Below are positions 1 through 63,970 of a stretch of 64,000 bases of DNA, piece after piece. The DNA is from Verrucomicrobia bacterium S94. Lineage in GTDB: Bacteria; Verrucomicrobiota; Kiritimatiellia; Kiritimatiellales; Pontiellaceae. Below the pieces are notes generated by a model. That model saw only the letters and a list, made by a program, of their open reading frames with translations. It was not told where the DNA came from and did not search any database. The stretch is from contig CP036201.1 in assembly GCA_004299845.1 (NCBI GenBank), forward strand, positions 2,232,001 to 2,296,000, given 5' to 3'. Position numbers and translations under genes: made by a program. The stretch's first letter is position 1, and each line of letters starts with the position of its first letter.

Positions 1-185
1 TTTAAGCGGCTCACCTTATGCCACTTGATTTCCGATCCAAAACCGCATTCCTCACACACGCGCCGGAAAGCTTTGGACAAAACCGGTTTGTCCTCACGAG
101 GGAGCCAGAGCCCGCCAATGGCCATATAAGGATTGGCGCCATGGCCGTCGTGACGGCTCTCGTCACAATAAACAACCATCTTCAT
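1..185 (-). CDS. DUF3800 domain protein, N-terminal part (cut by window edge)
   Basis: The reading frame starts at an ATG at 185 and runs off the window start, leaving about 61 residues. It opens MKMVVYCDESRHDGHGANPY, followed by an AIGGLWLP segment and EIKWHK. The early YxDES and later EIKWxK fit the DUF3800 family, which has a proposed RNase H-like fold with an acidic active site. A GGAGGG ribosome site lies just before the ATG, and the start overlaps the end of the upstream methyltransferase by 23 bases, so the two are translationally coupled. DUF3800 genes are often found beside restriction and defence genes. The specific role here is unknown. Confidence 0.7.
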   Translation of the reverse strand, partial: MKMVVYCDESRHDGHGANPYMAIGGLWLPREDKPVLSKAFRRVCEECGFGSEIKWHKVSRL

Positions 186-3100
186 TAGAACCCTCCCCGG
201 GGAACATGCGGAGCATGAATTCTTCTTCGATGAGGCGGACTTTCCAGGTCTGCTCGTCCTTGCGCAGGTTTTCGAGGTGATTGTCGCCGTTGACGTAGAT
301 GATGTCGAACTCCATGTCTTTGGTGCTGTAGCCCTGTTTCACAAACCAGTCGTTCAGGGCTTCGCTGTCTGTTTCGGCCACCCTGCGCCAGAGCACGAGA
401 ATTTTTTCGCCCGCCAGATTTTCACCGGTCAGCACGGTGACGCCCTTAATGAGATCCTGCGTCTGCACCTTGAGGCCGATCAGGTAATTGAAGGTTTCGA
501 TCAGATCCACGTTGACGGGTTTTGTTTCGCCGACGGAGCCGGTCGCCACCTTGAGCGAGTACGAAAACGGATCGGCGAACGCGCTTACATTGAGCAGGCT
601 GCCTTTGCACTCCACATCGAGCATATAGTGCAGCGTGTAGTCTTCCTTAAGCGCCGCATTCTTTTTGAGCAGATCGTCCTGTTCCGCCGTCCGCTTCAGC
701 TCCAGATTGTTCAGACAGTCCTCATACGATTCGAGGCGCAGGTATTTAAAGCAATGGGAAATTCCAGACTTTGGATCGGTCGGCTTACCTTTTTTCCAAT
801 CTTTGGAAAAGACCACTTTCTGAATGCGCGGCTTGAGCACCGTATCGAAATAATCGCCCATTTCAATGAGTATGAATTTACGCTGGCCGGGATACTCTCG
901 ATTCAAAGACATTAGTCCATGGCCTGCTGTGCCTGAACCAGCAAAACAATCCAAAACAAAACCTTCTTTTTCCTCAACTGAGTAAAAGATCCACTCAGCA
1001 AGCTTTACGGGTTTTGGATAATCGATCATTCCTCCTAAACCCAAATTTTCGAGCTGAATGCTTCCATCACTTTTCAGACTGATAATTGAGCGGAGTAAAA
1101 ATGATTCTACTTCTTTCAGATAGTTGATTGAACTCGGCTGAATTGTTTCTTTGGGAGAATACCAAATCCGTCCTTTGAGAACGCTGCCGTCTGGAAGTTT
1201 GTATGTAGGACCATCCGCTTCTGCCTTACGGAATGTATCCTCCTTCCAGCGCCAGCCACGATCTGGGATGGGGACTGGTTTCCCAGTTGCGGGACTGATG
1301 ACTTCATATCGGGGCCCTTCTGTTTTTGCATTTGGCCACGACATATTAATTTTTCCAAATATTTCATAGTTGGGATCGAGCTCACAATAGAGGGTGATTC
1401 CGCGATCAAAGCCCTGCTTTTTGTAGAATTTCTTAAGTGCCTTCTGGGCAGAAATTAAATCCCTTTTTGCGGATTTCTCCTTACGGATAAGCTCATAGAT
1501 ATCCTCGAGAGCATCCTTTCTCATCACGAAACCGCGATCTTTAGAACGTCGCAGCTTTTGGTCTTTGGCAAACAAATAGATGTACTCATGAATGTTCCCA
1601 ATTCCTTTGTCGTTTTTGGGAACACGCTTATTCCAAGTAATAGTTTCCACATGATTTTCTTCACCAAATACGGACTGAAGAATGTGTCCAAAATTCAAAA
1701 ACTCATTCTCATCGCAATTCGCAAAGAGCGAACCTTCAGCATCTAAAAACCAATACAGATTACCAACTGCTTGGTTCATCATAGTTGCCCACGATGAGGA
1801 CTGATAATTGTCTTTGTAAGCAAACCCATCATCACCAGTATTATAGGGTGGGTCAAAATAGACACATTTAACCTGTTCTCGGTAACGCTCCTGTAAAAGA
1901 TTCAACGCCTGGAAGTTTTCTGAATGAATGAGAAGTCCATCGGTCTGCTCGTCGATGTTGTCGATGGCTGCGAGCAGCTTTTGCTTAAATTCGGCATCGT
2001 AAAACGCGGTGTCGATCACCATGTAGGGAAACGCCTTCAGGTATTCGACCGTTCCAAGGTCTGGAACTGTGTTGTCGCCCAGTCCCAATTCATCCTGCCC
2101 GTTTTTTGTGTCTTTTTGTGCCTTTTCGCGGCCAACTAAAAATCCCAGCTTTTCCCACTCGGCCCATTGCGCTTTGTTGGCCGCAATTTCGGGATACAGG
2201 TTTTCCGGCACGCGGTCGAGCGTGATGCACCAGTTGGATTCGACGACGAATTTTTTCTTGAGCCAGAGTTTTTTCTGGAACTCTTCCAACTGGGCAAGAA
2301 AATCAATCAGTTTGTGGGCAATGCCGCGCAGCACGCGGATCTGGACAAGATAGCTTTCGACGCGCGGCGCGGTTTCGTGCTCGATGTCGTCGAGGTGCAT
2401 GACCTCGTTTTTGATGTAGAAGTCAAGCTCGCGCCGCAGGAATCCGCCGAGGTCCTTGTGGATGAAATAGTCCATGGAGTTCTTGGCGGTGTAGTCGACC
2501 AAATGTTTTTCGAGCACCGTACGATCCTTGCGCTTTTCTGTGGGCTTGGGCGCCAGCAGTTTGGGCGCAAAAGCACCGAAGTCGGCGGCGTGCTCCTTCA
2601 CATAATCGACACAGGCGGTAATGAAAGCTTCCTGCTTGCGGTTGTCGGGGTCGGCGCGGTATTCAAAGCCGAGCACCACTTCATTTTCCAGAATCTCTGT
2701 TTTTTCGGGATTGAAGATGAAAAGGCGCTTTTTGTCGTCGGCCGCTTTGCGGTTGTCTTTTTCGATGTCGGCTTCGACGAGTTTGAAGTGCAGGCGGGGC
2801 GCGTCGTCGCCTTCGGCCAGCCGGACGGTGTAGTCGCGCAGGTTTTCGGAGGATTTGATGTAGTACTGGTCTTTGTTGGCCCAATGCAGCACCACTTCTT
2901 CGCCTTCGTAGGGAATGGCATAGACGCCCTCTTTGTAGCGGCGCATGGAAATGAAGTCGCCGGCGTCGTAATAGCGGGAAAAAAAGCGGATCAGGTGGGA
3001 ATAGATCGCGTCCTCGGTCTTGGCCAGATCAACCGGTTCGCCCAGCCTGGCCTTCAGTTCCTGCACCTTGGGCACGGTGTCGGGATCGACGCCCAGCGCC

Positions 3101-3318
3101 TCGGCCTGCTTGATGGCCTCAGCCAGTTCGGCGCTGCCATTATCTTTGAGTGCGGCCAGTCCGGCCTTTACCTGCGGTAGCAGATCTTTATCGAGAAAGG
3201 TTTCAATTTCAGCCTGTTTGGCGTGCATGACGCGGTAGAAACCGAAATCGAGATCGGGGCGGTCGAGCTGAAAGAGCTCCCGCAGTTTGCTTTTGAGTTG
3301 GTCGAGTTTCGTTGCCAT
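163..3318 (-). CDS. Large beta-class adenine-specific DNA methyltransferase (Mod/COG2189 type)
   Basis: Predicted N6-adenine DNA methyltransferase of 1051 residues. The catalytic DPPY motif is at about 489-492 (FDPPYNTG) and the S-adenosylmethionine motif FAGSG at about 792-796. This order (IV before I) is the beta class used by type III Mod subunits. About 480 residues precede the catalytic core, and about 250 follow it, which is much longer than a normal Mod (roughly 600-700). The N-terminal part has charged helical segments and may bind a partner or DNA. The gene follows the helicase gene by 13 bases, with an AAGGA ribosome site, and overlaps the DUF3800 gene downstream. The context suggests modification in a restriction-like system. 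A Res subunit is not visible and could lie beyond position 1. Confidence 0.88.
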   Translation of the reverse strand: MATKLDQLKSKLRELFQLDRPDLDFGFYRVMHAKQAEIETFLDKDLLPQVKAGLAALKDNGSAELAEAIKQAEALGVDPDTVPKVQELKARLGEPVDLAKTEDAIYSHLIRFFSRYYDAGDFISMRRYKEGVYAIPYEGEEVVLHWANKDQYYIKSSENLRDYTVRLAEGDDAPRLHFKLVEADIEKDNRKAADDKKRLFIFNPEKTEILENEVVLGFEYRADPDNRKQEAFITACVDYVKEHAADFGAFAPKLLAPKPTEKRKDRTVLEKHLVDYTAKNSMDYFIHKDLGGFLRRELDFYIKNEVMHLDDIEHETAPRVESYLVQIRVLRGIAHKLIDFLAQLEEFQKKLWLKKKFVVESNWCITLDRVPENLYPEIAANKAQWAEWEKLGFLVGREKAQKDTKNGQDELGLGDNTVPDLGTVEYLKAFPYMVIDTAFYDAEFKQKLLAAIDNIDEQTDGLLIHSENFQALNLLQERYREQVKCVYFDPPYNTGDDGFAYKDNYQSSSWATMMNQAVGNLYWFLDAEGSLFANCDENEFLNFGHILQSVFGEENHVETITWNKRVPKNDKGIGNIHEYIYLFAKDQKLRRSKDRGFVMRKDALEDIYELIRKEKSAKRDLISAQKALKKFYKKQGFDRGITLYCELDPNYEIFGKINMSWPNAKTEGPRYEVISPATGKPVPIPDRGWRWKEDTFRKAEADGPTYKLPDGSVLKGRIWYSPKETIQPSSINYLKEVESFLLRSIISLKSDGSIQLENLGLGGMIDYPKPVKLAEWIFYSVEEKEGFVLDCFAGSGTAGHGLMSLNREYPGQRKFILIEMGDYFDTVLKPRIQKVVFSKDWKKGKPTDPKSGISHCFKYLRLESYEDCLNNLELKRTAEQDDLLKKNAALKEDYTLHYMLDVECKGSLLNVSAFADPFSYSLKVATGSVGETKPVNVDLIETFNYLIGLKVQTQDLIKGVTVLTGENLAGEKILVLWRRVAETDSEALNDWFVKQGYSTKDMEFDIIYVNGDNHLENLRKDEQTWKVRLIEEEFMLRMFPGEGSNEDGCLL

Positions 3319-3331
3319 ATCTTTTATCCTT

Positions 3332-6205
3332 TTAAATCACGCGCCATCGAATCGTAAAAAGACGCTGTTTTTCTGTCTTCTGAGAAAGGCGCTTTTCCAA
3401 GTCTTCGATCAGAAGGTCTCTTTTTTGCTCTATTTCGTCTTCCACATCAAAAATCTTCTGCCGCTGCCGGCGTTTTTTCTTTTCGAACTCACGGATTTTC
3501 ATCTGGAGCGCTTCCTGCTCTTCGAGCGTAACCGCTTTGCGGGCTTCGCGGTTAAGCGCCTTGATCTGATCTTTTGTTTTCTGGAGTTCTTTCTGGGCAG
3601 CGAGCTCCAAATCTTCCGCCCATTTCCAGAGCCGTTCGCGAGCTTCGTTGAAATGTTCACTGTTTCGCTCCAGTGATTGTGCGAGTACGCCGTTGGCATG
3701 GCGTTCAGCTTCTTTATCGAGGCGCTCGACAACGGCATCCGGCATTGAGGACAGGGGTGCCGAATTTCCGCTGCACTGAAACAGTTTTTCAAATTCTTCC
3801 TGAGACAAGGCGGGGCCGTCATCAACAAACCCGGAAAAGAGCAGGTGTTCTTCTATGTCGCAACTGTCAATGATGAGCTGCTCAAGCACCAGCCAGCCGC
3901 TTTTCCCTTTCAGCACCTCCACCTGCGAAATTTTGACGGGATGGCTGGAAACATCAAACGTGACTTGAGCTTCAGGCGTTTCAATGGTACGCCCCTGTTC
4001 TATCACATATTCTCCCAGCGGATGGGACAGTCGGTAGAGGAATTCGCCGGGCAGATTAGTCTGCTTTTTTGAGATCAAACAGTATTCCCCGGGACGGATA
4101 CCGTCTTGGGGCGGTTTATCCAGCTGAAACTTCAGGGCGGTTTCATCAAAGGATGCACAAGAATGCAGAACGTATCTGCTCAACGCCCAAAACATACGCG
4201 AGAAACGATCTAAAAACTCCTGCGAGTCCAGAAGATGCACGCGTAGGCGCTCGTGCACATCGGCATCGAAATTTTCCAGCAAGACCCGGCGCGTATTCGT
4301 CATGCGAACCTGTATGCTTTCCTCAAATTCATCCTGGAGACGATCAAATGCCGCCTGGATTTCTTCGGGTGATCGGCACTCCTGGTAGATCTCCAGTATA
4401 CGGCGCTCAAAATCGATTCCGGATTCTATGACACCCAGAACTTCGTCCGAAGCGCCGAAAACGCCTTCGAACAGATTGAATTTGTGTTGAAGCAGCTCAT
4501 AAACACGGCAATCGGCTTCATTCTTTTTATTCAGAAAGTTGACCACAACAACATCATGTCTCTGTCCGTAGCGGTGGCAGCGCCCAATGCGCTGCTCAAC
4601 CCGTTGCGGATTCCACGGAAGATCGTAGTTGACAACCAAAGAACAGAATTGAAGGTTGATCCCTTCTGCTCCGGCTTCTGTAGCAATTAAAATTTCCGCC
4701 TGTTCTTTAAATCGATCCAGCAATGCCGTGCGCACGTCGACGGCCCGCGATCCCGTGACACGTCCTGTTGTTCGATTCACTTTTTTCCAGTCTTCGTAAT
4801 ACGCGCTGGCCTCCGCGTCGGAATTGGTTCCATTAAAAGAAACCACCTTTCCCTTAAAACCGTTGTTTTCCAAAAATGTTTTTACATAATCCTGCGTACG
4901 GCGGGACTCTGTAAAAATAACGGCTTTACGGGCAGCCCCCGATTTTGCCATTTGCTCAAATCCGACATCCAGCGCCGTGAGTAACGATTTTGCTTTGGTA
5001 TCCACGCCGATATTTTGCGCCCATTCAATGAAGCGACCCAGCTCATCGATTTCAGATTGGAGCTTTACCAGATCAATTTTTTCCATGCTCCGGGAACAAT
5101 CCCCTTCAAAATCGATAAGACTCTGCTCATCACCCAGAACATCTTCGAGAATTTCGTTTTCCAGCTCTTCTTCCTGAAGGATGCTTTCAATGATCGGCGT
5201 ATCCTGTTCGGTTTCCTTTAAGGCAATGAGCCGTTTACGCATGGCCTCCAGAGTTCCGGCCACGGCCAGCGGCGAAGAGGCCAGCAGCTTGCGAACAATC
5301 AGCGCTGTCAGGTGCTTTTGCCGGTACGGCATGGCATAGGTGTCTTTGCGCTGAAGGAATGCCGATACTGCTTTGTATAGTTTCTGCTCCTGATCGGTCG
5401 GTTCAAACGGGCGGGTAATCAGTTTCCGGTTGGTATAGGGCACATATTCCTGGACCTGTTCACGCAATGTGCGTTTACAAAACGAACCCAGACGCTGCTT
5501 CAGACCGAGCAAGTCGCCATCCGAGTTCATGTATTGAGTTCGAAATGAAGGAACATCCGCAAAAATTCGCTCATCGAGCAGTGAACAAAGTCCATACAGT
5601 TCCAGCAATGAATTTTGCAACGGTGTTGCGGTCAGTAAAATTTTTCGAGCATCCTCCAAAGCAAATCGGATATTCTGCCCGATGCGGTTGCTCTCACGAT
5701 AGGAATTCCGCAGTTTGTGCGCCTCATCAATCACCGTCATGTCCCACTGTACAGCCTGGACCAAATCCGCATTTCGGGCGGCGAAGTGCATGGAGCAGAT
5801 AATGATTCTTTTTCCGTCAAACGGATTAATCGATCCGTCTTTCTGCGCATCCCGAAATGATTTTGAATCGAGCACAATGGACGGCAAATTAAATTTTTCA
5901 TCCAGTTCCAAAGACCACTGTTTACGCAAAGCGGCGGGACAAATAATCAGCAGCTTGCGCTTACGTTCTGCCCATAACTGGCAAAGTACCAGACCGGCCT
6001 CAATGGTTTTTCCTAATCCGACCTCATCGGCCAGCAAAACGCCTTTGGTCAGCGGAGAGCGCAGCGCAAACAGCGCAGCATCGATCTGATGCGGGTTCAG
6101 ATCAACGGCGGCATCAAAAAGAGAACGCGAAAGGCGCTCAACTCCCTCTCCGCCCTGCTTCATAAGCTCGTAAGCATAGTATTTTGCGTGATATCCGGTT
6201 AACAT
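3332..6205 (-). CDS. SNF2/RapA-like superfamily 2 helicase
   Basis: 957-residue ATPase/translocase. Visible motifs are Walker A DEVGLGKT (about 60-67), the DEAH box (160-163), motif III LTATP (about 191-195) and a C-terminal helicase lobe with GAEGINLQ (about 512-519) and QRIGRCHRYGQ (about 538-548). An acidic insert lies near 340-370. The last 110 residues form a strongly charged predicted coiled coil. SNF2 proteins of this kind act as DNA or nucleoprotein translocases. As first gene of the operon with a large methyltransferase and a DUF3800 protein, it is probably the motor of a phage-defence or restriction complex. DrmD of DISARM class 1 is also SNF2-like, but DISARM partners are not visible here. 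Confidence 0.88.
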   Translation of the reverse strand: MLTGYHAKYYAYELMKQGGEGVERLSRSLFDAAVDLNPHQIDAALFALRSPLTKGVLLADEVGLGKTIEAGLVLCQLWAERKRKLLIICPAALRKQWSLELDEKFNLPSIVLDSKSFRDAQKDGSINPFDGKRIIICSMHFAARNADLVQAVQWDMTVIDEAHKLRNSYRESNRIGQNIRFALEDARKILLTATPLQNSLLELYGLCSLLDERIFADVPSFRTQYMNSDGDLLGLKQRLGSFCKRTLREQVQEYVPYTNRKLITRPFEPTDQEQKLYKAVSAFLQRKDTYAMPYRQKHLTALIVRKLLASSPLAVAGTLEAMRKRLIALKETEQDTPIIESILQEEELENEILEDVLGDEQSLIDFEGDCSRSMEKIDLVKLQSEIDELGRFIEWAQNIGVDTKAKSLLTALDVGFEQMAKSGAARKAVIFTESRRTQDYVKTFLENNGFKGKVVSFNGTNSDAEASAYYEDWKKVNRTTGRVTGSRAVDVRTALLDRFKEQAEILIATEAGAEGINLQFCSLVVNYDLPWNPQRVEQRIGRCHRYGQRHDVVVVNFLNKKNEADCRVYELLQHKFNLFEGVFGASDEVLGVIESGIDFERRILEIYQECRSPEEIQAAFDRLQDEFEESIQVRMTNTRRVLLENFDADVHERLRVHLLDSQEFLDRFSRMFWALSRYVLHSCASFDETALKFQLDKPPQDGIRPGEYCLISKKQTNLPGEFLYRLSHPLGEYVIEQGRTIETPEAQVTFDVSSHPVKISQVEVLKGKSGWLVLEQLIIDSCDIEEHLLFSGFVDDGPALSQEEFEKLFQCSGNSAPLSSMPDAVVERLDKEAERHANGVLAQSLERNSEHFNEARERLWKWAEDLELAAQKELQKTKDQIKALNREARKAVTLEEQEALQMKIREFEKKKRRQRQKIFDVEDEIEQKRDLLIEDLEKRLSQKTEKQRLFTIRWRVI

Positions 6206-6230: not shown

Positions 6231-6646
6231 CTATTTTACATAAAAGTTCCGAGCTTTGGATAAGGAAATAAAAAGAAGATCCAACCCGGCACTGTCAATA
6301 TTCGTGTTAAACGGGTCAAGGATCAGAGCCGCCCAAGCTCTACCTGGATAAAATACCGACCTGTTTTTCTGTAATCAGCGGCAAAAAGGTAGGATTCGAC
6401 GGTCTGAGAGCACTCGAAGAGCCCTCACAGAGTCTGCTATACCGGTTCTGGTTCCGTCCCGTATGATGATCCGCCAAAGCTCCGGAACATCTAAAGCGAC
6501 AGACGCATCTATAGCGTTAGATCGGTTCCAGATAGCTCTTTAAATCGTCCACCGCCCTTATTACTCCCCAAGAATAAAACTAATGCAACAGTCAGGAAGA
6601 CACAAAAGCAGTGCTGCGGCAAACCAGAGCTCTGTGCCCTTGGAAT

Positions 6647-6665
6647 TTTCCCAACCTTTGGGAAA
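6647..6665. repeat. Palindrome TTTCCCAA-CCT-TTGGGAAA after thiE
   Basis: An 8-bp perfect inverted repeat with a 3-base loop, starting 8 bases after the thiE stop codon on the minus strand. It could cap or end the thi transcript, but no U tract follows. The sequence belongs to the same TTCCAA-type palindrome group as the element before the helicase gene. Confidence 0.5.
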
Positions 6666-6673
6666 TTTTTCTC

Positions 6674-7321
6674 TCAGCGGACCGGGTGCAAAGCCTGATC
6701 GATTTGACCCCTGATTTGGCGGGCGGCCTGTTTGGGGTCGGGGGCCTGGCAGATGGCGGAGACGACGGCGAGGCAGTCGGCGCCGGCGCGGATGACGTCG
6801 GCGGCGTTGTCGGCGCTGATGCGGCCGATGGCGATGAGGGGTTTGTCGGTGCGCTGACGGATAGTGCGGATGCCGTCGAGGCCCCATTCGGTGATGGTAT
6901 CGGTTTTGGTCGGCGTCTTAAAGACGGGGCTGATGCCGAAGCAGTCGGAAAGTTCCGCGTCCTGCGTTTCAAGCTGATCGAGGTGCTCAATGGAATAGCC
7001 GAGCGAGCCGCAATCCGCCCAGACGGAGCGAATGTGAGCGGGGGCAATATCGCTGCGGCCGACGTGAATGCCGAAGGCACCGGACTGCATGGCGACATCG
7101 AGATTATCGTTGATGATCAGGGGAACATCATAGGACTGCAGCATCGTCTGCAGGCGTTCTGCTTTGTGGAGAAATTCGTCGGGCGCGGCGTGTTTTTCGC
7201 GCAGCTGCACGAGATCGACACCGCCCTGTACCGCCTGCTCGGCGACCTCAACAAAATCGCGCCCGGAGCAGTCGGCCTCGGAGATCACCAGATATAAGCG
7301 ATAGGGAAACGGATCGGCCAT
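6674..7321 (-). CDS. thiE: Thiamine-phosphate synthase
   Basis: ThiE joins hydroxymethylpyrimidine diphosphate and thiazole phosphate to give thiamine phosphate in the cytosol. The 215-residue TIM-barrel shows VQLREK near the N-terminus, IINDN for substrate binding, GIHVGRSD, SPVFKTPTKT for diphosphate contact, and a late AIGRISADN segment. I place the start at the ATG two bases after the thiM stop; a GTG nine bases earlier overlaps thiM. The tight spacing shows one transcript with thiM. Thiazole salvage plus coupling can therefore be made from this operon. No thiD is present in the window. Confidence 0.93.
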   Translation of the reverse strand: MADPFPYRLYLVISEADCSGRDFVEVAEQAVQGGVDLVQLREKHAAPDEFLHKAERLQTMLQSYDVPLIINDNLDVAMQSGAFGIHVGRSDIAPAHIRSVWADCGSLGYSIEHLDQLETQDAELSDCFGISPVFKTPTKTDTITEWGLDGIRTIRQRTDKPLIAIGRISADNAADVIRAGADCLAVVSAICQAPDPKQAARQIRGQIDQALHPVR

Positions 7322-7323
7322 GG

Positions 7324-8118
7324 TCAGCACGCGATGCGCAGGGTGTTTTTGAATTCGTCTTCGGTCAGATTGTAAAGTTTATCAAGCAGGTTCATCTGCA
7401 GACTGCCGGGACCGCTACTGGATTTTTCGGCGAGTTCACCGGCGATGCTCAGCAATGCAACTGCCGCAGTCATCGCTTCAATTTTACTTTCAGTCACCGC
7501 GAGAAAGGCGCCGATCAGGGCAGTGGCGGAACAGCCGAGTCCGGTAACGCGTGTCATCAGCGGTGTACCGTTGTGAATCTGAATAACGGACTGGTCGGAG
7601 ACTATAAAATCGGTTTCGCCGGAAATGCCCACCACCGCTCCGGTGAGTTTATGGAGGGCCCGCGCGGCATCCAGTGCCTCCTGACTCTGCGCGGTGCTGT
7701 CGACCCCTTTGGTTTTGCTTTGATTCGCATTGGCCAGCGCCAGAATTTCGGAGGCGTTGCCGCGAATCGCCGTCGGGCGCAGGGCGATGAGCCGCGATAA
7801 TACCTCATCGCGATACGAAGTGGCTCCGGCACCGACGGGATCGAGAATCCACGGTTTTTTAAGCGCCCGCGCCCGGCAGGCCGCCTGCAGCATGGCATCG
7901 GACCACGCATGATCCAAGGTTCCGATATTCACCACAAGTGCGCTGCAGAGCGCAACCATTTCATCTATTTCCTGGAGGGCATGAGCCATGATCGGCGAGG
8001 CCCCGACCGCCAGCAATGCATTGGCGGTATTATTCATCACCACATAGTTGGTAATATTGTGTACCAGCGGAGACTGAGTGCGAACGGTAGAAATATGTTT
8101 CCAAAGTTTTTCTTTCAT
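7324..8118 (-). CDS. thiM: Hydroxyethylthiazole kinase
   Basis: ThiM phosphorylates hydroxyethylthiazole in thiamine salvage. The 264-residue protein has the family start SPLVHNITNYVVMN, then NTANALLA and GASPIMAH, DPVGAGAT near the middle, and the catalytic GLGCSATALIGAF near residue 200. Length is normal. The gene is first in a two-gene operon with thiE. The start ATG sits only 7 bases from the end of a long inverted repeat, with no clear Shine-Dalgarno sequence outside it, so translation may depend on leader folding. Confidence 0.94.
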   Translation of the reverse strand: MKEKLWKHISTVRTQSPLVHNITNYVVMNNTANALLAVGASPIMAHALQEIDEMVALCSALVVNIGTLDHAWSDAMLQAACRARALKKPWILDPVGAGATSYRDEVLSRLIALRPTAIRGNASEILALANANQSKTKGVDSTAQSQEALDAARALHKLTGAVVGISGETDFIVSDQSVIQIHNGTPLMTRVTGLGCSATALIGAFLAVTESKIEAMTAAVALLSIAGELAEKSSSGPGSLQMNLLDKLYNLTEDEFKNTLRIAC

Positions 8119-8125
8119 CGTTTTC

Positions 8126-8194
8126 GATCCGGCAAAGGTTAATCATAAAAAAAGCGTAACCCTTAAAGAGCTACGCTTTAACCTTCACCGGATC
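8126..8194 (-). promoter_or_regulatory. Nested-hairpin leader of thiM with internal terminator
   Basis: Read on the minus strand, arms of 17 bases at 8178-8194 and 8126-8142 pair completely if two G-U pairs are allowed. They enclose a second hairpin (AGCGTA pairing with TACGCT, 8153-8178 region) followed by seven T (8147-8153). The inner hairpin plus T tract resembles an intrinsic terminator for the upstream small gene, or an attenuator. The outer stem ends 7 bases before the thiM ATG and would hide its ribosome site. I do not see the conserved TPP-riboswitch core. Confidence 0.6.
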
Positions 8195-8222
8195 AACTCC
8201 GGAAACGGAATAATCCGTTCAT

Positions 8223-8543
8223 TCAGCGGTTCCGGGAATCGGACTGCAGTCCCGGCGGCACAAAGTGCGGCAGCCGCTCCGGATCGCGGCGGTTATAACC
8301 GATCCGTTTCCGCATCGGATTCCGGGTCTGTACGGTCCACCGGATCAATTCCCCGACAATACAAATCGGTGCAACCGCCAGCAGCGAGACAAACAGGACC
8401 TCAGAGAAACGGGCATCGATCATCCGATGCGCAACCAGGGCCACAATCAGCCCGACGGCCGGTGCCAGCAGCAATGCGCCAAACGTGATGGCATCGCCTG
8501 CAGTTCTATCGCTTTCTCGTTCTTTCATGATGTTCGTTTTCAT
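8223..8543 (-). CDS. Small two-helix membrane protein of unknown function
   Basis: A 106-residue protein with two predicted transmembrane segments (about 20-42 and 50-72 from the chosen start) and a basic, proline-rich C-terminal tail. I start at the ATG at 8543 because AAGGA lies about 10 bases before it; an upstream in-frame TTG has no such site. It lies upstream of thiM on the same strand, separated by a terminator-like hairpin. I recognise no family. Confidence 0.6.
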   Translation of the reverse strand: MKTNIMKERESDRTAGDAITFGALLLAPAVGLIVALVAHRMIDARFSEVLFVSLLAVAPICIVGELIRWTVQTRNPMRKRIGYNRRDPERLPHFVPPGLQSDSRNR

Positions 8544-8868
8544 GGTCTGTTTTCCTTTCTTCAAAAATTAAAAATTTCATTCACCGGAATCACGGCACCG
8601 GCTTTATCCGGCACCGACGAATCTTCATCTTTCTTTCAGTATAAATATTAAATCTTTTTATTTTTATTTAAGATAAAACCCGTTCTTCCGTTCAATTGCC
8701 CCGGCTTATAGATCATCCTGAGCGGACACTGCAGTATTTTTTTTGTTTTATTTTCATGTGATTTAGTGATATATTGTAAGGTTTTTTTGCTTTCTGGCTT
8801 ATTTAGAGCGACTTACAACATCGGCACAACCATTGCCCCAACCCGCGTAAAGCTCGAATTCCACATTT

Positions 8869-8901
8869 CAAACCGGTTTCTAAAGCTAGATTACCGGTTT
8901 G
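8869..8901. repeat. Hairpin CAAACCGGT / ACCGGTTTG downstream of efflux operon
   Basis: Perfect 9-bp arms enclose a second small stem (TCTA/TAGA). It lies about 50 bases beyond the stop of the outer-membrane efflux gene and may end that transcript, although no U tract follows on the minus strand. The rest of 8544-8951 is A/T-rich and holds no supported gene. Confidence 0.45.
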
Positions 8902-8951
8902 GAGCTGTTTTATTCTCGCTTCGGAAACTGAAAAAGTGCCCTCGAAATCCC

Positions 8952-10295
8952 TTAGTAGATCCCCAGCGATTTATAGAGCCGGACCACACTTTTCGCCTGT
9001 TCCGCCTCGGCGGCCGCCAGTGCGGAATCGGCATTATTCGCCGTGCGCTGCGCATCGAGCACATCAAGGAACGAAACCTCGCCCTCGCGAAACAGCATTT
9101 CCGAAAGCTTCAGTGCCCGTGCGGAATTTTCATATGCCTTCTCAAGTGAACCGCGCCGCTCACGGATGCGGGCATAGTCGGTCATGGCACTCTCCACATT
9201 AGCCACCGCCTGCAGCACCGTCTGCCGCATCTGTTCATAGGCCTGCTTTTCACGTGCTTCCGCAGCATCAATCCGTCCTTCAATACGGCCGAAATCAATC
9301 AGGTTGACCGCCCCGTCAACAGCCCCCTGCCAGATTCGGGCGGAATCGAACAGAACGCCGTCAGCAAAACCGAAAAAACCGCTCAGACTGATCGTCGGAT
9401 AGAGCTCCGCCACTGAAACATCGACCAGTGCAGAATCGGCTTCAAGCACCGCAGCGGCGCGGCGGATATCCGGACGTCCGGCCATCACATCAGCCGGAGC
9501 CAGCAGCAAAGCATTAACATCGGCCCCCGGAATCTCCACCCCTGCCTCCCGGTTCAGCTCAGGCATCTCCTGCGGAAGAAGCCCCAGCAGTACAGCCAGC
9601 TGAAGCCGCGCATTTTCCGCCAGCCGCTGAAATTCAGGAATCGACGCACGCGTCGTATTCACCAGACTCTCCGAACGCTCCACATCCAGCCGCGGTGCTT
9701 CACCGTGGGTATGCTGCTGTTCCACCAGCTTCAGCGTATCCTCCTGCGCCTTCAGGTTCTTTTCCGCAATAGCACGCTGTTTTTCGGCGGAGCGGAAATC
9801 GATATACGTGCGGACCACCTCCGCCGCAAGCGAAAGTTCCACCCACTGGAGATCGGCCTCCAGCGCCCGCAGCTGCGCATCCGCCGCATCCAGCGTATTC
9901 CGGTTTCTGCCGAACAGATCAACTTCGTAGGAAGCATCAAAACCTGCCGTATAAAAATTGCCGGTTGATTCCGTAAGTGCCTCACGCTCGCGTCCCGCAT
10001 CCCCACTGATTCCAAAGCCAGGAAAAAGACCGGCTCTGGCCGATCGGCGTATCCCGCGCGCCTCACGAATGCGCGCAGCGGCAATACGCTGCTGCGGACT
10101 GTTGGTCAGCGCGGTTTCCACCAGGTCGGCCAACACCGGATCGTTAAACGAAGTCCACCAGACCGAAAGCTCATTCGTACTCACCGTCGCGGCGGAGACC
10201 TCCCATTTTCCGGGCTGTTTCAGTTCGGGCAGTTCCTGCCGGGTCACACAGCCGGTAAGCAGCAGCGGCAATATCCAAAGTATGTTTAGTTTCAT
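8952..10295 (-). CDS. Outer-membrane efflux lipoprotein (OprM/NodT type)
   Basis: 447 residues, the outer-membrane channel of a tripartite RND pump. It has a lipoprotein signal with lipobox LLTGC near residue 16, followed by two repeats of the outer-membrane efflux domain rich in long alpha helices (AEKNLKAQEDTLKLVEQQHTHGE region, and REKQAYEQMRQTVLQAVANVE later). The start overlaps the end of the inner-membrane pump gene by 4 bases, so the three pump genes are cotranscribed. The substrate is not predictable from sequence. Confidence 0.92.
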   Translation of the reverse strand: MKLNILWILPLLLTGCVTRQELPELKQPGKWEVSAATVSTNELSVWWTSFNDPVLADLVETALTNSPQQRIAAARIREARGIRRSARAGLFPGFGISGDAGREREALTESTGNFYTAGFDASYEVDLFGRNRNTLDAADAQLRALEADLQWVELSLAAEVVRTYIDFRSAEKQRAIAEKNLKAQEDTLKLVEQQHTHGEAPRLDVERSESLVNTTRASIPEFQRLAENARLQLAVLLGLLPQEMPELNREAGVEIPGADVNALLLAPADVMAGRPDIRRAAAVLEADSALVDVSVAELYPTISLSGFFGFADGVLFDSARIWQGAVDGAVNLIDFGRIEGRIDAAEAREKQAYEQMRQTVLQAVANVESAMTDYARIRERRGSLEKAYENSARALKLSEMLFREGEVSFLDVLDAQRTANNADSALAAAEAEQAKSVVRLYKSLGIY

Positions 10296-60070: not shown

Positions 60071-61351
60071 CTACTCCTTAAATTTGTCCTTAAACGCCCA
60101 GAGCCCCAGTGCCGGATTGGAAATATAATAGATCTCTTCCCCGTCCGGCAGAATGTTCCAGCCGTCCTTAAGAACAGCGGGATCATACCGCCCGGCCATT
60201 TCTTCATAGGATACCGCATCAAATCCGACCGACCGTACTTCATCGAGCGTCACATCCCGGCCCGGGCAATACGTAATATGAAAACGCCCCTCCGACGAAC
60301 CATGAATCAGATGCGCTGCCGCCCCCAGATTGGACCGCAGTTCTTCATCCTCTTCCACATGCTTCAGCGTCGCCGGTGTACCGCAATAGCCGAACTTCCG
60401 AATCAGTTTATCAATCGTCGGATCCTCGCCGAATTCCTTCAGCGCCGGTGCCAGTACAATGAGTTCACCGCCGTCCGCAATCGCCATGCGCGTGCGGTAA
60501 ACCGACTTATTCCCCAGCCAGGTACTTTGAAATTCGTGCGGATCGAGATAGACCACCACTTTCTTCGGCTCGCGATCCAGCAGCGTGATGTTCACCGCAC
60601 GCGCCAGTTTGCAGGCCTCCTCGAAAACAGCCGCATCCCGACCGGCATAAAATCCGCGCATATGCATTTCGCCGGTATCATAATTCTGCTCCATCACCGT
60701 CAGAATATAGGTGATCGGAAGATCCGACAGATACGTATCCACCGCATGATTAAACAGCCGGCGCACCGGCGAATCCGTCTGTCCCAGAATATGTTCAATA
60801 CCGGCCACCGCACCGAGAAAGTGCGACTTATTAATGATATCTGAACCGCCGGCCCCCACCACGATATTTTTCGTGTAGTTGGCCATACCCACGACCTCAT
60901 GCGGCACCACCTGACCGACCGAAAGAATCAGATCATAACCGTCAAACAGCATCCGGTTGACTTCAACCCCAACGGTATAATTCACCTTTCCAGCGGACAG
61001 TTCTGCAAGCATATCGCCGGAAATTTCGCCTTTGCGCACCACGTCATTCCGCCAGTCGTGCACCCGGAACCGGTCCAGAGGAATTTTATCCCCGAACATC
61101 ATCCGCAGCTGCGCATCCGTCATCGGATTATGCGTCCCGAGCGTGGGCAGAATATCCACCTCCACCCCGTCAGCGGTCAGCTGTTCATAAACCATTTCCG
61201 TAATCGGACCGGCCATGGAATTCAGCCGCGTATGATCCGGCGGCAGAATAAGAACGCGCTTCAGAACCCCGGTATGTTCCAGACATTGCGAAACCAGTTC
61301 ACGGAGCTCTTCACCGGAAATGGAAACCTGCTCGCCGAATCTGCCGATCAT
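60071..61351 (-). CDS. LarA-family racemase/epimerase (DUF2088)
   Basis: 426 residues. ILPPDHTRLNS (about 37-47), LPTLGTHNPMTDAQLRMMFG (about 83-102) and ANYTKNIVVGAGG are typical of the LarA family, which uses a nickel-pincer cofactor to invert the hydroxyl at C2 of hydroxy acids. Members of the family act on lactate and on larger sugar acids. Placement between gnd and uxaC suggests a sugar-acid substrate rather than lactate. LarB/C/E cofactor genes are not in the window. Confidence 0.82.
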   Translation of the reverse strand: MIGRFGEQVSISGEELRELVSQCLEHTGVLKRVLILPPDHTRLNSMAGPITEMVYEQLTADGVEVDILPTLGTHNPMTDAQLRMMFGDKIPLDRFRVHDWRNDVVRKGEISGDMLAELSAGKVNYTVGVEVNRMLFDGYDLILSVGQVVPHEVVGMANYTKNIVVGAGGSDIINKSHFLGAVAGIEHILGQTDSPVRRLFNHAVDTYLSDLPITYILTVMEQNYDTGEMHMRGFYAGRDAAVFEEACKLARAVNITLLDREPKKVVVYLDPHEFQSTWLGNKSVYRTRMAIADGGELIVLAPALKEFGEDPTIDKLIRKFGYCGTPATLKHVEEDEELRSNLGAAAHLIHGSSEGRFHITYCPGRDVTLDEVRSVGFDAVSYEEMAGRYDPAVLKDGWNILPDGEEIYYISNPALGLWAFKDKFKE

Positions 61352-61377: not shown

Positions 61378-61414
61378 TCCGGCGCTGTACCCGGTTTCCC
61401 GGTACAACGCCGGA
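61378..61414. repeat. Strong hairpin between gnd and LarA-family gene
   Basis: TCCGGCG-x-TGTACC pairs with GGTACA-x-CGCCGGA across 61378-61391 and 61401-61414 with a single mismatch and a small loop. No U tract follows, so it is more likely an RNA-processing or mRNA-protecting element of the operon than a terminator. Confidence 0.6.
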
Positions 61415-61422
61415 AATTTCAC

Positions 61423-62874
61423 TTACACGATATAAGTGGACGCAGACGTATCGCCGCCGCGTCCGGTCCAGTTGGTGTGGAAGAATTCCCCGCGCGGCTT
61501 ATCGAGGCGTTCATAGGTATGTGCACCGAAATAGTCGCGCTGCGCCTGCAGCAGATTCGCCGGAAGCCGCGCCGAACGATAGCCGTCAAAATAGGCCAGC
61601 GCCGCACTGATCGCCGGCATCGGAATACCCAGCTCAGCGGATTTCATAACCACCCGCCGCCACGATGCCTGCGCATTTTCAACCGCGTCTTTAAAGAACG
61701 GATCCAGCAGCAGATTCACGAGATCCGGATTGGCATCGAACGCTTCCTTGATTTTTCCAAGGAAGACCGAACGGATAATACAGCCGCCGCGCCACATCAG
61801 TGCAATCTCACCGTTGTTTAATGTCCACCCATACTCTTCCGCCGCTGCACGCATGAGCTGATATCCCTGAGCATACGAAACAATCTTGGAAGCATAGAGC
61901 GCCTGTTTGAGATCCTCAATCATCGCCGCTTTATCCCCTTCGAACACCGTATCCGGACCGTTCAGCACCTTCGAGGCAGCCACACGCTCCTCTTTCAGCG
62001 CCGAAAGACAACGTGCAAAAACCGCTTCGCCGATCAGCGTCAGCGGCTGACCGAAGTCCAGCGCCGAAACCGCTGTCCATTTTCCGGTCCCTTTCTGCCC
62101 GGCGGTATCGAGAATCGAGTCGATCACCGCTTCGCCTTCTTCGGTTTTATAGCCGAGAATATCGCGGGTGATTTCAATCAGATACGAATCCAGCTCACTC
62201 TCATTCCACGCTTTAAAGACATCGTGCATCTCTTCGTTACTGAGGCCGAGTCCCTCTTTCATCATCTGGTAGGTTTCGCAGATCATCTGCATGTCGCCGT
62301 ATTCGATCCCGTTGTGCACCATCTTAACAAAATGGCCGGCACCGTCGGAGCCCACCCATTCGCAGCAGGGTTCTCCGGTCTCCGTATGGGCGGAAATTTT
62401 CTGAAAAATCGGTTTAACCGATGCCCACGCCGCTTCGGAACCACCGGGCATAATGGACGGGCCGAGCAGTGCCCCTTCTTCCCCGCCGGAAACCCCGGTG
62501 CCGATGTAGAGCAGCCCTTTGCTTTCCACATATTCCGTCCGGCGGATCGTATCCGGATAATGGCTGTTTCCGCCATCGATGATAATATCGCCTTCTTCAA
62601 GATGCGGCAGAACCTGCTCAATCAGCGCATCCACCGCCGCACCGGCTTTCACCAGCATCATCACTTTACGCGGACGCTCCAGACTGGCACAGAACTCTTC
62701 GATGCTCTTGCATCCGATAAAGTTTTTTCCGGCTCCGCGACCTTCAATAAATTTATCCACTTTTTCCACCGTGCGGTTGAAAACCGCCACGGTGAACCCC
62801 TTGCTCTCCATGTTGAGAACAAGATTCTCGCCCATCACTGCCAGGCCGATCAGGCCGATATCTGCTTTTGCCAT
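61423..62874 (-). CDS. gnd: 6-phosphogluconate dehydrogenase (decarboxylating)
   Basis: 483 residues from the ATG at 62874, with GGAG about 10 bases before it. The opening [21 protein letters not shown] is the NADP Rossmann loop. [45 protein letters not shown] and the C-terminal helical domain [14 protein letters not shown] are the family marks. It oxidises 6-phosphogluconate to ribulose 5-phosphate. Being with uronate genes, it may instead serve gluconate made there. It follows the kinase gene by 22 bases. Confidence 0.94.
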
Positions 62875-62896
62875 TTTATGTCTCTCCATTTTAAAA

Positions 62897-63970
62897 TTAA
62901 CGTTTAACCCGGGCATTGCCCTCCCAGATGCTCCAGAGCTGATCTTCATCAGCCGGTTGCGCGTAATCGGTGAGCATAGTAGCGGCGAGTGCGCCGCTTG
63001 CCCAACCGAACCGCGCACATTTTTTCACATCCCAGCCTTTCAGAATACCATAGAGCAGCCCGCCCACAAAACCGTCGCCGCCGCCGATCCGGTCCAGCAC
63101 ACCGATCTCCCGCGGCCGGATGATTTCCCAGTCGCTGGAATCCGTAACCAGCGCCCCCCACATATGGGCGTTGGCCGAAAGCACTTCACGCAGGGTCGTG
63201 GCAAAATACTTCGCATTCGGATAGGCCTGTTGCACGCGGCCGATCATCTCCTTAAACCCGTCGATCTTGGAATCCAGTCCCGCGCCGCCCGCTTCCGGAC
63301 CCTCAATACCCAGACACAGCTGAAAATCCTCTTCGTTACCGATCAGAATATCGCTGGCATCGGCAATTTCGTGAAAGGCGCTGCGCAGCTCCTCTTCACG
63401 CCCTTTCCAGAAGCTGGCCCGGTAATTGAGATCAAACGAAATTCTTGATCCGTGCGCTTTGGCCGCACGCGCCACATCCAGACAGAACCGACTGGTCTTG
63501 GGCGACAGCGCGGCAATCAGACCGGAAAGGTGAACAATCTCCACGCCTTCTTGCCCGAATATCCGGTCGAGATCAAAATCAGCAGCACTCAGCTCCCGGC
63601 CGACTTCGCCGGCGCGGTCGTTCTGCACACGAGGCCCGCGCGATCCCCACCCGCTGTCGGCCATATTGATCTGATGACGGAATCCCCACGGATTGTCCTG
63701 CTCAAATTCAGGCCCCTCAAAATCCATCCGCCGGCTTTTCAGATTATCCTTAATGAAATGCGCCACCGGACTCCCCTTTACGAAAGCCGTCAGCACCTTT
63801 ACCGGCAGACCGAGATAGGACGAAATGCTGGCCACATTGCTCTCCGCACTGGTCGCCTGCATCTTAAAGGTATCGCTGCAATGGAACGGCTGCGAATCCA
63901 CCGGCGTGAGCCGGATTCCCATACTGGTAGGCACCAAAAGGGCATATTTTTTAAATCCGTTCTCGGTCAT
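62897..63970 (-). CDS. PfkB-family sugar kinase, 2-keto-3-deoxygluconate kinase-like
   Basis: 357 residues of the ribokinase/PfkB fold. [13 protein letters not shown] near residue 40, [13 protein letters not shown] (about 173-185), [11 protein letters not shown], and the catalytic [17 protein letters not shown] (about 295-311) with the aspartate general base are visible. The DxNxR segment and GGGD rather than GAGD match KDG kinases that phosphorylate 2-keto-3-deoxygluconate in uronate breakdown. It heads the visible operon; its own promoter lies at or beyond the window edge. Confidence 0.85.

Follow-up and report, generated by a model that had tools for sequence, protein, structure and literature searches.

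The conserved part of the leader that precedes thiM in a Pontiella-type bacterium, presumably a member of the phylum Kiritimatiellota, is probably the promoter of thiM-thiE, and the hairpin formed around it would both terminate transcription and cover the ribosome site, insulating thiM from the neighbouring gene. The window, the whole 64-kb stretch of DNA analyzed, comes from a single-contig 4.1-Mb genome (G000), which was compared with its relatives; among these, G001, G009 and G022 are taken to be B1224, B12219 and Pontiella sulfatireligans, respectively. The locus illustrates how a single genome can suggest a flawless RNA switch when the conserved positions probably belong to promoter DNA. 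The features discussed below are as follows.

6674 to 7330, minus strand: thiE, thiamine phosphate synthase, overlapping the end of thiM (TIGR00693, 185 bits, cut-off 145.1)
7324 to 8118, minus strand: thiM, hydroxyethylthiazole kinase (TIGR00694, 274.4 bits, cut-off 256.4)
8126 to 8142, minus strand: 3′ arm of the outer stem (sequence and fold), holding GGA (8130-8128) with a putative SD role
8147 to 8153, minus strand: run of seven T (U-tract) in the sequence, the first three of which pair within the inner hairpin
8151 to 8179, minus strand: inner hairpin, from a scan for U-tract hairpins, a putative intrinsic terminator
8160 to 8164, minus strand: predicted thiM transcription start, inside the inner loop or immediately past it, placed from the position of the −10 hexamer
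8168 to 8173, minus strand: predicted −10 hexamer TAGCTC, from the alignment; TAGCT is invariant in all five leaders, with an invariant G ahead of it
8178 to 8194, minus strand: 5′ arm of the outer 17-pair stem (sequence and fold), overlapping the −35 hexamer and most of the promoter spacer
8191 to 8196, minus strand: predicted −35 hexamer TTGATC of the thiM promoter, from the alignment, invariant in five of five leaders
8223 to 8564, minus strand: small ORF co-oriented with thiM, the presumed source of read-through, with its stop codon 28 nt upstream of the hairpin

Genomic context of thiM

The small ORF gave no match in Pfam or NCBIfam, has a counterpart at the same site in G027, and is followed farther out by an OEP/TolC-type gene and an AcrB-type gene. 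G027 is the closest relative, with a ThiM identity of 93%, and the nearest named ThiM relatives are those of Pontiellaceae bacteria B1224 and B12219 and of Pontiella sulfatireligans F21. Among the 28 genomes of the genus, thiM was found in five, namely G000 and four of the 27 others. The ThiM proteins of the genus are closer to those of Bacteroidota (up to 67% identity) than to those of their own class (36-59%), which suggests horizontal transfer of thiM. Elsewhere in the window, positions 163-6205 hold two large minus-strand genes, named by eye from their translations as DNA methyltransferase-like (1051 aa) and helicase-like (957 aa), which may perhaps form a restriction or defence system.

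A strand-specific nested hairpin upstream of thiM

On the minus strand, GATCCGGTGAAGGTTAA (8194-8178) pairs with TTAACCTTTGCCGGATC (8142-8126) to give an outer stem of 17 pairs, including two G-U pairs, inside which lies an inner hairpin, AAAGCGTAGCTCTTTAAGGGTTACGCTTT (8179-8151), whose 3′ arm enters the seven T (8153-8147). The base of the outer stem stands 7 nt from the thiM ATG (8118), and the GGA within its 3′ arm provides the sole SD-like bases ahead of that codon. The original prediction had described this same arrangement, with its 17-pair stem, two G-U pairs, enclosed second hairpin, seven T and 7 bases to the ATG, and was correct by sequence on every point; it was also right that the full stem exists only in the minus-strand RNA, where the two G-U pairs can form. 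Over 81 nt, the minus-strand RNA folds at −41.4 kcal/mol (z −8.57), a value reached by none of 200 shuffles, and over 104 nt at −51 (z −8.03), whereas the plus-strand fold is weaker (−32.9, z −5.34). Equal or greater stability was found in only 5 of 10,656 segments of 69 nt taken from both strands of the 64-kb window at a step of 12, and all five contain 75-80% G+C, against 42% for the hairpin. The hairpin is a real, strand-specific structure.

The inner hairpin has 13 pairs, five of them G-C, and a U-run directly after the stem-loop; in a simple scan, it ranks fifth strongest among the U-tract hairpins of the window. Such hairpins at or below −12 kcal/mol number 24 in the window, against a mean of 6.25 in eight dinucleotide shuffles, and on account of this excess the organism appears to use intrinsic terminators. 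The element resembles an intrinsic terminator in having a hairpin and U-tract after an upstream gene, but differs in being enclosed by a second stem of 17 pairs and in overlapping the predicted promoter of the next gene.

Between G000 and G027, the 69 bases of the hairpin differ at four places: two are G-U/G-C exchanges that leave the pair intact, one disrupts a pair, and one lies in the loop. These changes would fit selection on the RNA stem in both genomes, and are too few for proof.

Conservation of the leader in the genus

An alignable leader of about 80 nt precedes thiM in all five thiM-bearing genomes of the genus. The hairpin is restricted to two of them: fold z-scores are −8.57 in G000 and −8.31 in G027, and +0.32, −0.70 and +0.11 in the group of B1224, B12219 and P. 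sulfatireligans, whose leaders fold no better than shuffles. Within that group, the leaders are 72-85% identical, against 53-65% at the fourfold sites of thiM and 11-28% over the 80 bases farther upstream. Between the group and G000/G027, leader identity is 58-63%, about that of the fourfold sites (52-63%), and the next 80 bases upstream are 28-41% identical. P. sulfatireligans, which lacks the thiM hairpin, carries a long inverted repeat of the form AGGTCTCAACATTCAATA...TATTGAATATTGAGACCT upstream of its leader, between a sulfatase gene and thiM (L025, 2770-2850).

The original prediction had taken the G-U pairs as a hint of an RNA function, and this gained little from the relatives: conservation of the paired arms is largely absent, the strong fold being confined to two of five thiM leaders, and covariation across the thiM upstream regions showed no excess over shuffles. 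When the predicted structure was applied to the five-sequence alignment, one pair had changed on both sides, against a mean of 2.4 in shuffles, and the covariation score was equalled by 411 of 500 shuffles, five sequences giving the test low power. Pairing cells amounted to 76.3%, against 76.2% in shuffles; sliding the arms lowered pairing to 28-43%, which is a weak control, the structure having been derived from one of the aligned sequences. A covariance model built from the five leaders (R1) exceeded 80 bits only at those same five leaders in the 28 genus genomes, the next match reaching 25.7 bits. Across 387 genomes of the phylum, it recovered four of the five leaders (without G022) and nothing else above 28 bits, and in a set of 90 loci only thiM leaders scored above 23 bits. 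A conserved structured RNA was therefore rejected, since R1 finds thiM leaders alone and the strong fold occurs in two of five.

R1 matches in G004 and G015 were viewed by eye, and neither has the thiM hexamers. The best of the other genus matches (25.7 bits; L272, G004:C114:1252-1325) comes from a genome that lacks thiM and likewise forms one hairpin within another, an outer CATCCGGCA...TGCCGGATG stem surrounding a run of T; nested terminators of this kind may occur elsewhere in the genus.

Predicted promoter hexamers within the conserved leader

Common to the five leaders is the pattern TTGATC, 17 free bases, TAGCT(C/G). The hexamers are invariant in 11 of 12 columns, compared with 24 of the 67 remaining columns of the leader (Fisher p 4e-4, an optimistic value, the hexamers having been picked after viewing the alignment), while the 17-bp spacer is constant in length and invariant in only 3 of 17 columns. 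When all placements of two blocks of six columns, 17 apart, were considered, at least 11 invariant columns were obtained only here and at a shift of one column (12 of 12). In all five leaders, the site ends 47-49 nt ahead of the ATG. Together, this hexamer pattern, like that of a bacterial promoter, suggests that the conserved half of the element is the thiM promoter.

Similar promoters occur elsewhere in the genus. In G000, G027, G001 and G009, lepA is preceded by TTGAC(C/G)-17-TAGCTT with a drifting spacer; in G022, a site of this kind precedes a different gene, and rplU of G000 has TTGACA-17-TAGTTT (lepA and rplU were named from their translated starts rather than by family search). The distance from the lepA −10 hexamer to the ATG is 53 and 50 nt at the two loci with a script-picked ATG. 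Two further candidate sites had no clear housekeeping gene downstream. The thiM hexamer, TAGCTC or TAGCTG, departs from these genus examples in having no T at the final −10 position.

A promoter reference set was drawn from regions upstream of RNAs and genes with a known or constrained start. Of 41 regions upstream of TPP riboswitches, 21 carry TTGAC(T)-16/17-TA(G/A)NNT or close to it and 20 do not; both thiC copies of this genome are among the 21, with TTGACT-16-TAGATT and TTGCAA-17-TAGCTT. By eye, tmRNA promoters resemble TTGACG-17-TTCTCT, and RNase P upstream regions, which showed no clear common promoter, were left out. Nineteen of the 41 riboswitch regions (L181, L182, L185-L189, L193-L201 and L203-L205) share another block, mostly CTTCCCGCTTTACTTC...TGGCA(A/G), unlike the TTGACT-TAGATT class and perhaps another promoter type or an operator.

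Scored with a profile of the 21 thiC-type sites, the thiM site reached 4.5 bits, a value equalled at 245 of 127,948 positions of the window, and as good a site arose in 1023-1703 of 5000 shuffles per leader. With a one-per-family profile, it scored 7.2, equalled at 60 of 127,946 positions, although this profile is biased, seven of its 15 families having been chosen by pattern. Over five genomes, TTGAC-N17/18-TAGNNT gave fewer matches than its reversed control and TTGAT-N17/18-TAGCT about as many. By score, the promoter match is thus of moderate strength. A scan of 6500-9000 with the sigma70 consensus found no promoter (1.7 expected on the minus strand); such a scan would miss the thiM promoter, because the −10 hexamer in this genus apparently differs from TATAAT. 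The promoter assignment leans on the conserved hexamers with a free spacer, the orthologous promoters of the same form, and the distance to the ATG, and less on the score. The genus thereby gains candidate promoter hexamers.

Proposed insulation of thiM from read-through

Since the invariant positions fall on −35 and −10 hexamers of a type that the genus appears to employ, the own transcript of thiM should start inside the hairpin. From these comparisons we infer promoter activity, a start site, termination of read-through and occlusion of translation, which would combine in the following manner. In G000 and G027, the thiM-thiE promoter (TTGATC, 17 bp, TAGCTC) would lie within the 5′ arms of the hairpin, and RNA made from it would start at about 8160-8164, inside the inner loop or slightly past it, and would carry a leader of roughly 43 nt. 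Because it starts past the 5′ arms, this short RNA could form neither the outer nor the inner stem, and thiM would be translatable. Polymerase arriving from the small ORF would instead transcribe the entire hairpin; most of the resulting RNA would end at the inner U-tract hairpin, and in any surviving long RNA the 17-pair stem would cover the GGA ahead of the thiM ATG. The net effect would be to insulate thiM from transcription of its neighbour.

The computed probability that the SD region is unpaired is 0.00 in the long RNA of the two hairpin-bearing genomes. For the short RNA that the promoter reading predicts, it rises to 0.70 in G027, a clear release of the ribosome site in these models, but only to 0.18 in G000, a weak one. 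The corresponding values for long and short RNA are 0.51 and 0.29 in B1224, 0.17 and 0.53 in B12219, and 0.72 and 0.73 in P. sulfatireligans. The presence of the hairpin goes along with the neighbouring gene: in both hairpin-bearing genomes, a co-oriented ORF ends close upstream (in G000, with its stop at 8223 and the hairpin from 8194), whereas among the genomes without it the neighbour is divergent in B1224, a co-oriented gene ends 500 nt away in P. sulfatireligans, and the thiM neighbourhood of B12219 is cut by a contig end. This link amounts to one evolutionary contrast between two clades, not five.

A comparable arrangement has been described in T4-like phages, where I-TevI, I-TevII, I-TevIII, segB and Aeh1 mobE have hairpins that hide the ribosome-binding site and carry a promoter in the 5′ arm, and the ribosome site was measured to be paired in read-through RNA and not in RNA from the internal promoter (PMC2988022). 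The likeness to the I-TevI type lies in the promoter within the 5′ side of a stable hairpin, predicted here and measured in T4; the thiM element differs in belonging to a chromosomal thiamine gene, in having no phage late promoter, and in its additional nested U-tract terminator. A literature search for promoters placed within hairpins returned only PMC2988022, from which absence from print is not claimed, and a search for Pontiella with thiamine found no paper. If the mechanism holds, a chromosome would here be using the device known from phage T4, with a single DNA segment acting as promoter for one gene and terminator for the adjoining one while also blocking translation of read-through RNA.

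Alternative explanations of the leader

It is conceivable, if unlikely, that the element serves the small upstream ORF solely as its intrinsic terminator; the outer stem would then be incidental, and thiM would be expressed from another promoter or by read-through. The inner hairpin and its U-tract, placed 28 nt past the upstream stop codon, agree with this, but it leaves unexplained both the invariant spaced hexamers in genomes that lack the hairpin and a 17-pair outer stem that ends at the ribosome site.

A cis-acting RNA switch or attenuator of a non-TPP kind, confined to G000 and G027 and with its fold chosen by a thiamine precursor or a protein, is quite unlikely. It would account for a very strong, minus-strand-specific fold ahead of a thiamine gene in two genomes, where two of the three stem changes between them preserve the pair by G-U/G-C exchange, and for the contrast with the nearest ThiM relatives: in all 11 Bacteroidota loci scanned, a TPP riboswitch lies directly before thiM, as one also lies upstream of thiM in four of nine loci from other genomes of the class (about 900 nt away in one). 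Its precedent would be the HMP-PP riboswitches (thiS motif), in which an aptamer is embedded in a terminator before thiazole genes and which, across many species, combine a conserved loop with a pseudoknot and an alternative fold stabilised by the ligand (PMC6478431). The thiM hairpin shares with them the position of a terminator-like hairpin before a thiazole-side thiamine gene, but its fold is seen in two genomes and a further stem surrounds its U-tract. Against a switch stand the missing fold in three of five thiM leaders, the covariation no higher than in shuffles, the conserved letters, which match the −35 and −10 hexamers and not stems or loops, and the lack of any Rfam riboswitch match. 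Of the proposal that this hairpin is an RNA element, what is supported is a strand-specific structure with its terminator-like core directly before thiM; a leader RNA that senses a thiamine compound is not supported, and such a sensor confined to these two genomes is likewise unlikely and unsupported. The more elaborate version, in which the TPP riboswitch of thiM-thiE would have been replaced in two Pontiella-type species by a private terminator-embedded sensor for HET, HET-P or HMP-PP, built from the older promoter and with a ligand-bound fold that breaks the inner terminator and frees the ribosome site, is very unlikely.

The Rfam scans bear most directly on the TPP riboswitch (RF00059, cut-off 54.3 bits). 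No family reached its gathering score anywhere in the window, and among weak matches up to E 10 for the hairpin region and for the relatives there was neither TPP nor any other riboswitch. The search with the TPP covariance model bore out the original statement that the element is unlike the classical TPP riboswitch: the model matched the thiM leader neither at gathering score nor up to E 10, and the likeness is one of position, TPP riboswitches standing ahead of the thiM of the closest protein relatives. At other sites of the same genome, TPP riboswitches precede two thiC-like genes and a thiG-thiH operon, genes that were named from their translations. It is highly improbable that a truncated or derived TPP riboswitch remains at thiM in the form of the pyrophosphate-binding half (TGATC...GCGTAG). 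The leader core GTTGATC-N14-GCGTAGC has an 11-base resemblance to CCTGATC-N12-GCGTAGG of TPP riboswitches, and the thiM of the nearest protein relatives does bear them; this half-riboswitch was rejected because a two-block profile of the TPP core was equalled by 215, 211, 34, 165 and 792 of 2000 shuffles for the five leaders, respectively, and the Rfam model found nothing even on the leader alone, and the promoter hexamers account for the resemblance.

A mobile palindromic repeat of REP or MITE-like type, which a long inverted repeat adjoining a gene might bring to mind, is scarcely credible and was dismissed, since the 4.1-Mb genome has the hairpin only once (among 15 matches, the runner-up shares 17 identical bases, E 0.08) and G027 has it at the same location; the single copy gives no sign of a known transposable repeat. 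A leader peptide was likewise dismissed, the recurrent frame ending in KA/KQ-stop having, by eye, no start codon in B12219.

Elsewhere in the window, another strong hairpin, TCCGGCGCTGTACCCGG...CCGGTACAACGCCGGA (61378-61415; at least 14 pairs, region z −4.17), lies in the gap between the ORF at 61423-63018, which by eye resembles 6-phosphogluconate dehydrogenase, and the next minus-strand ORF at 60071-61351.
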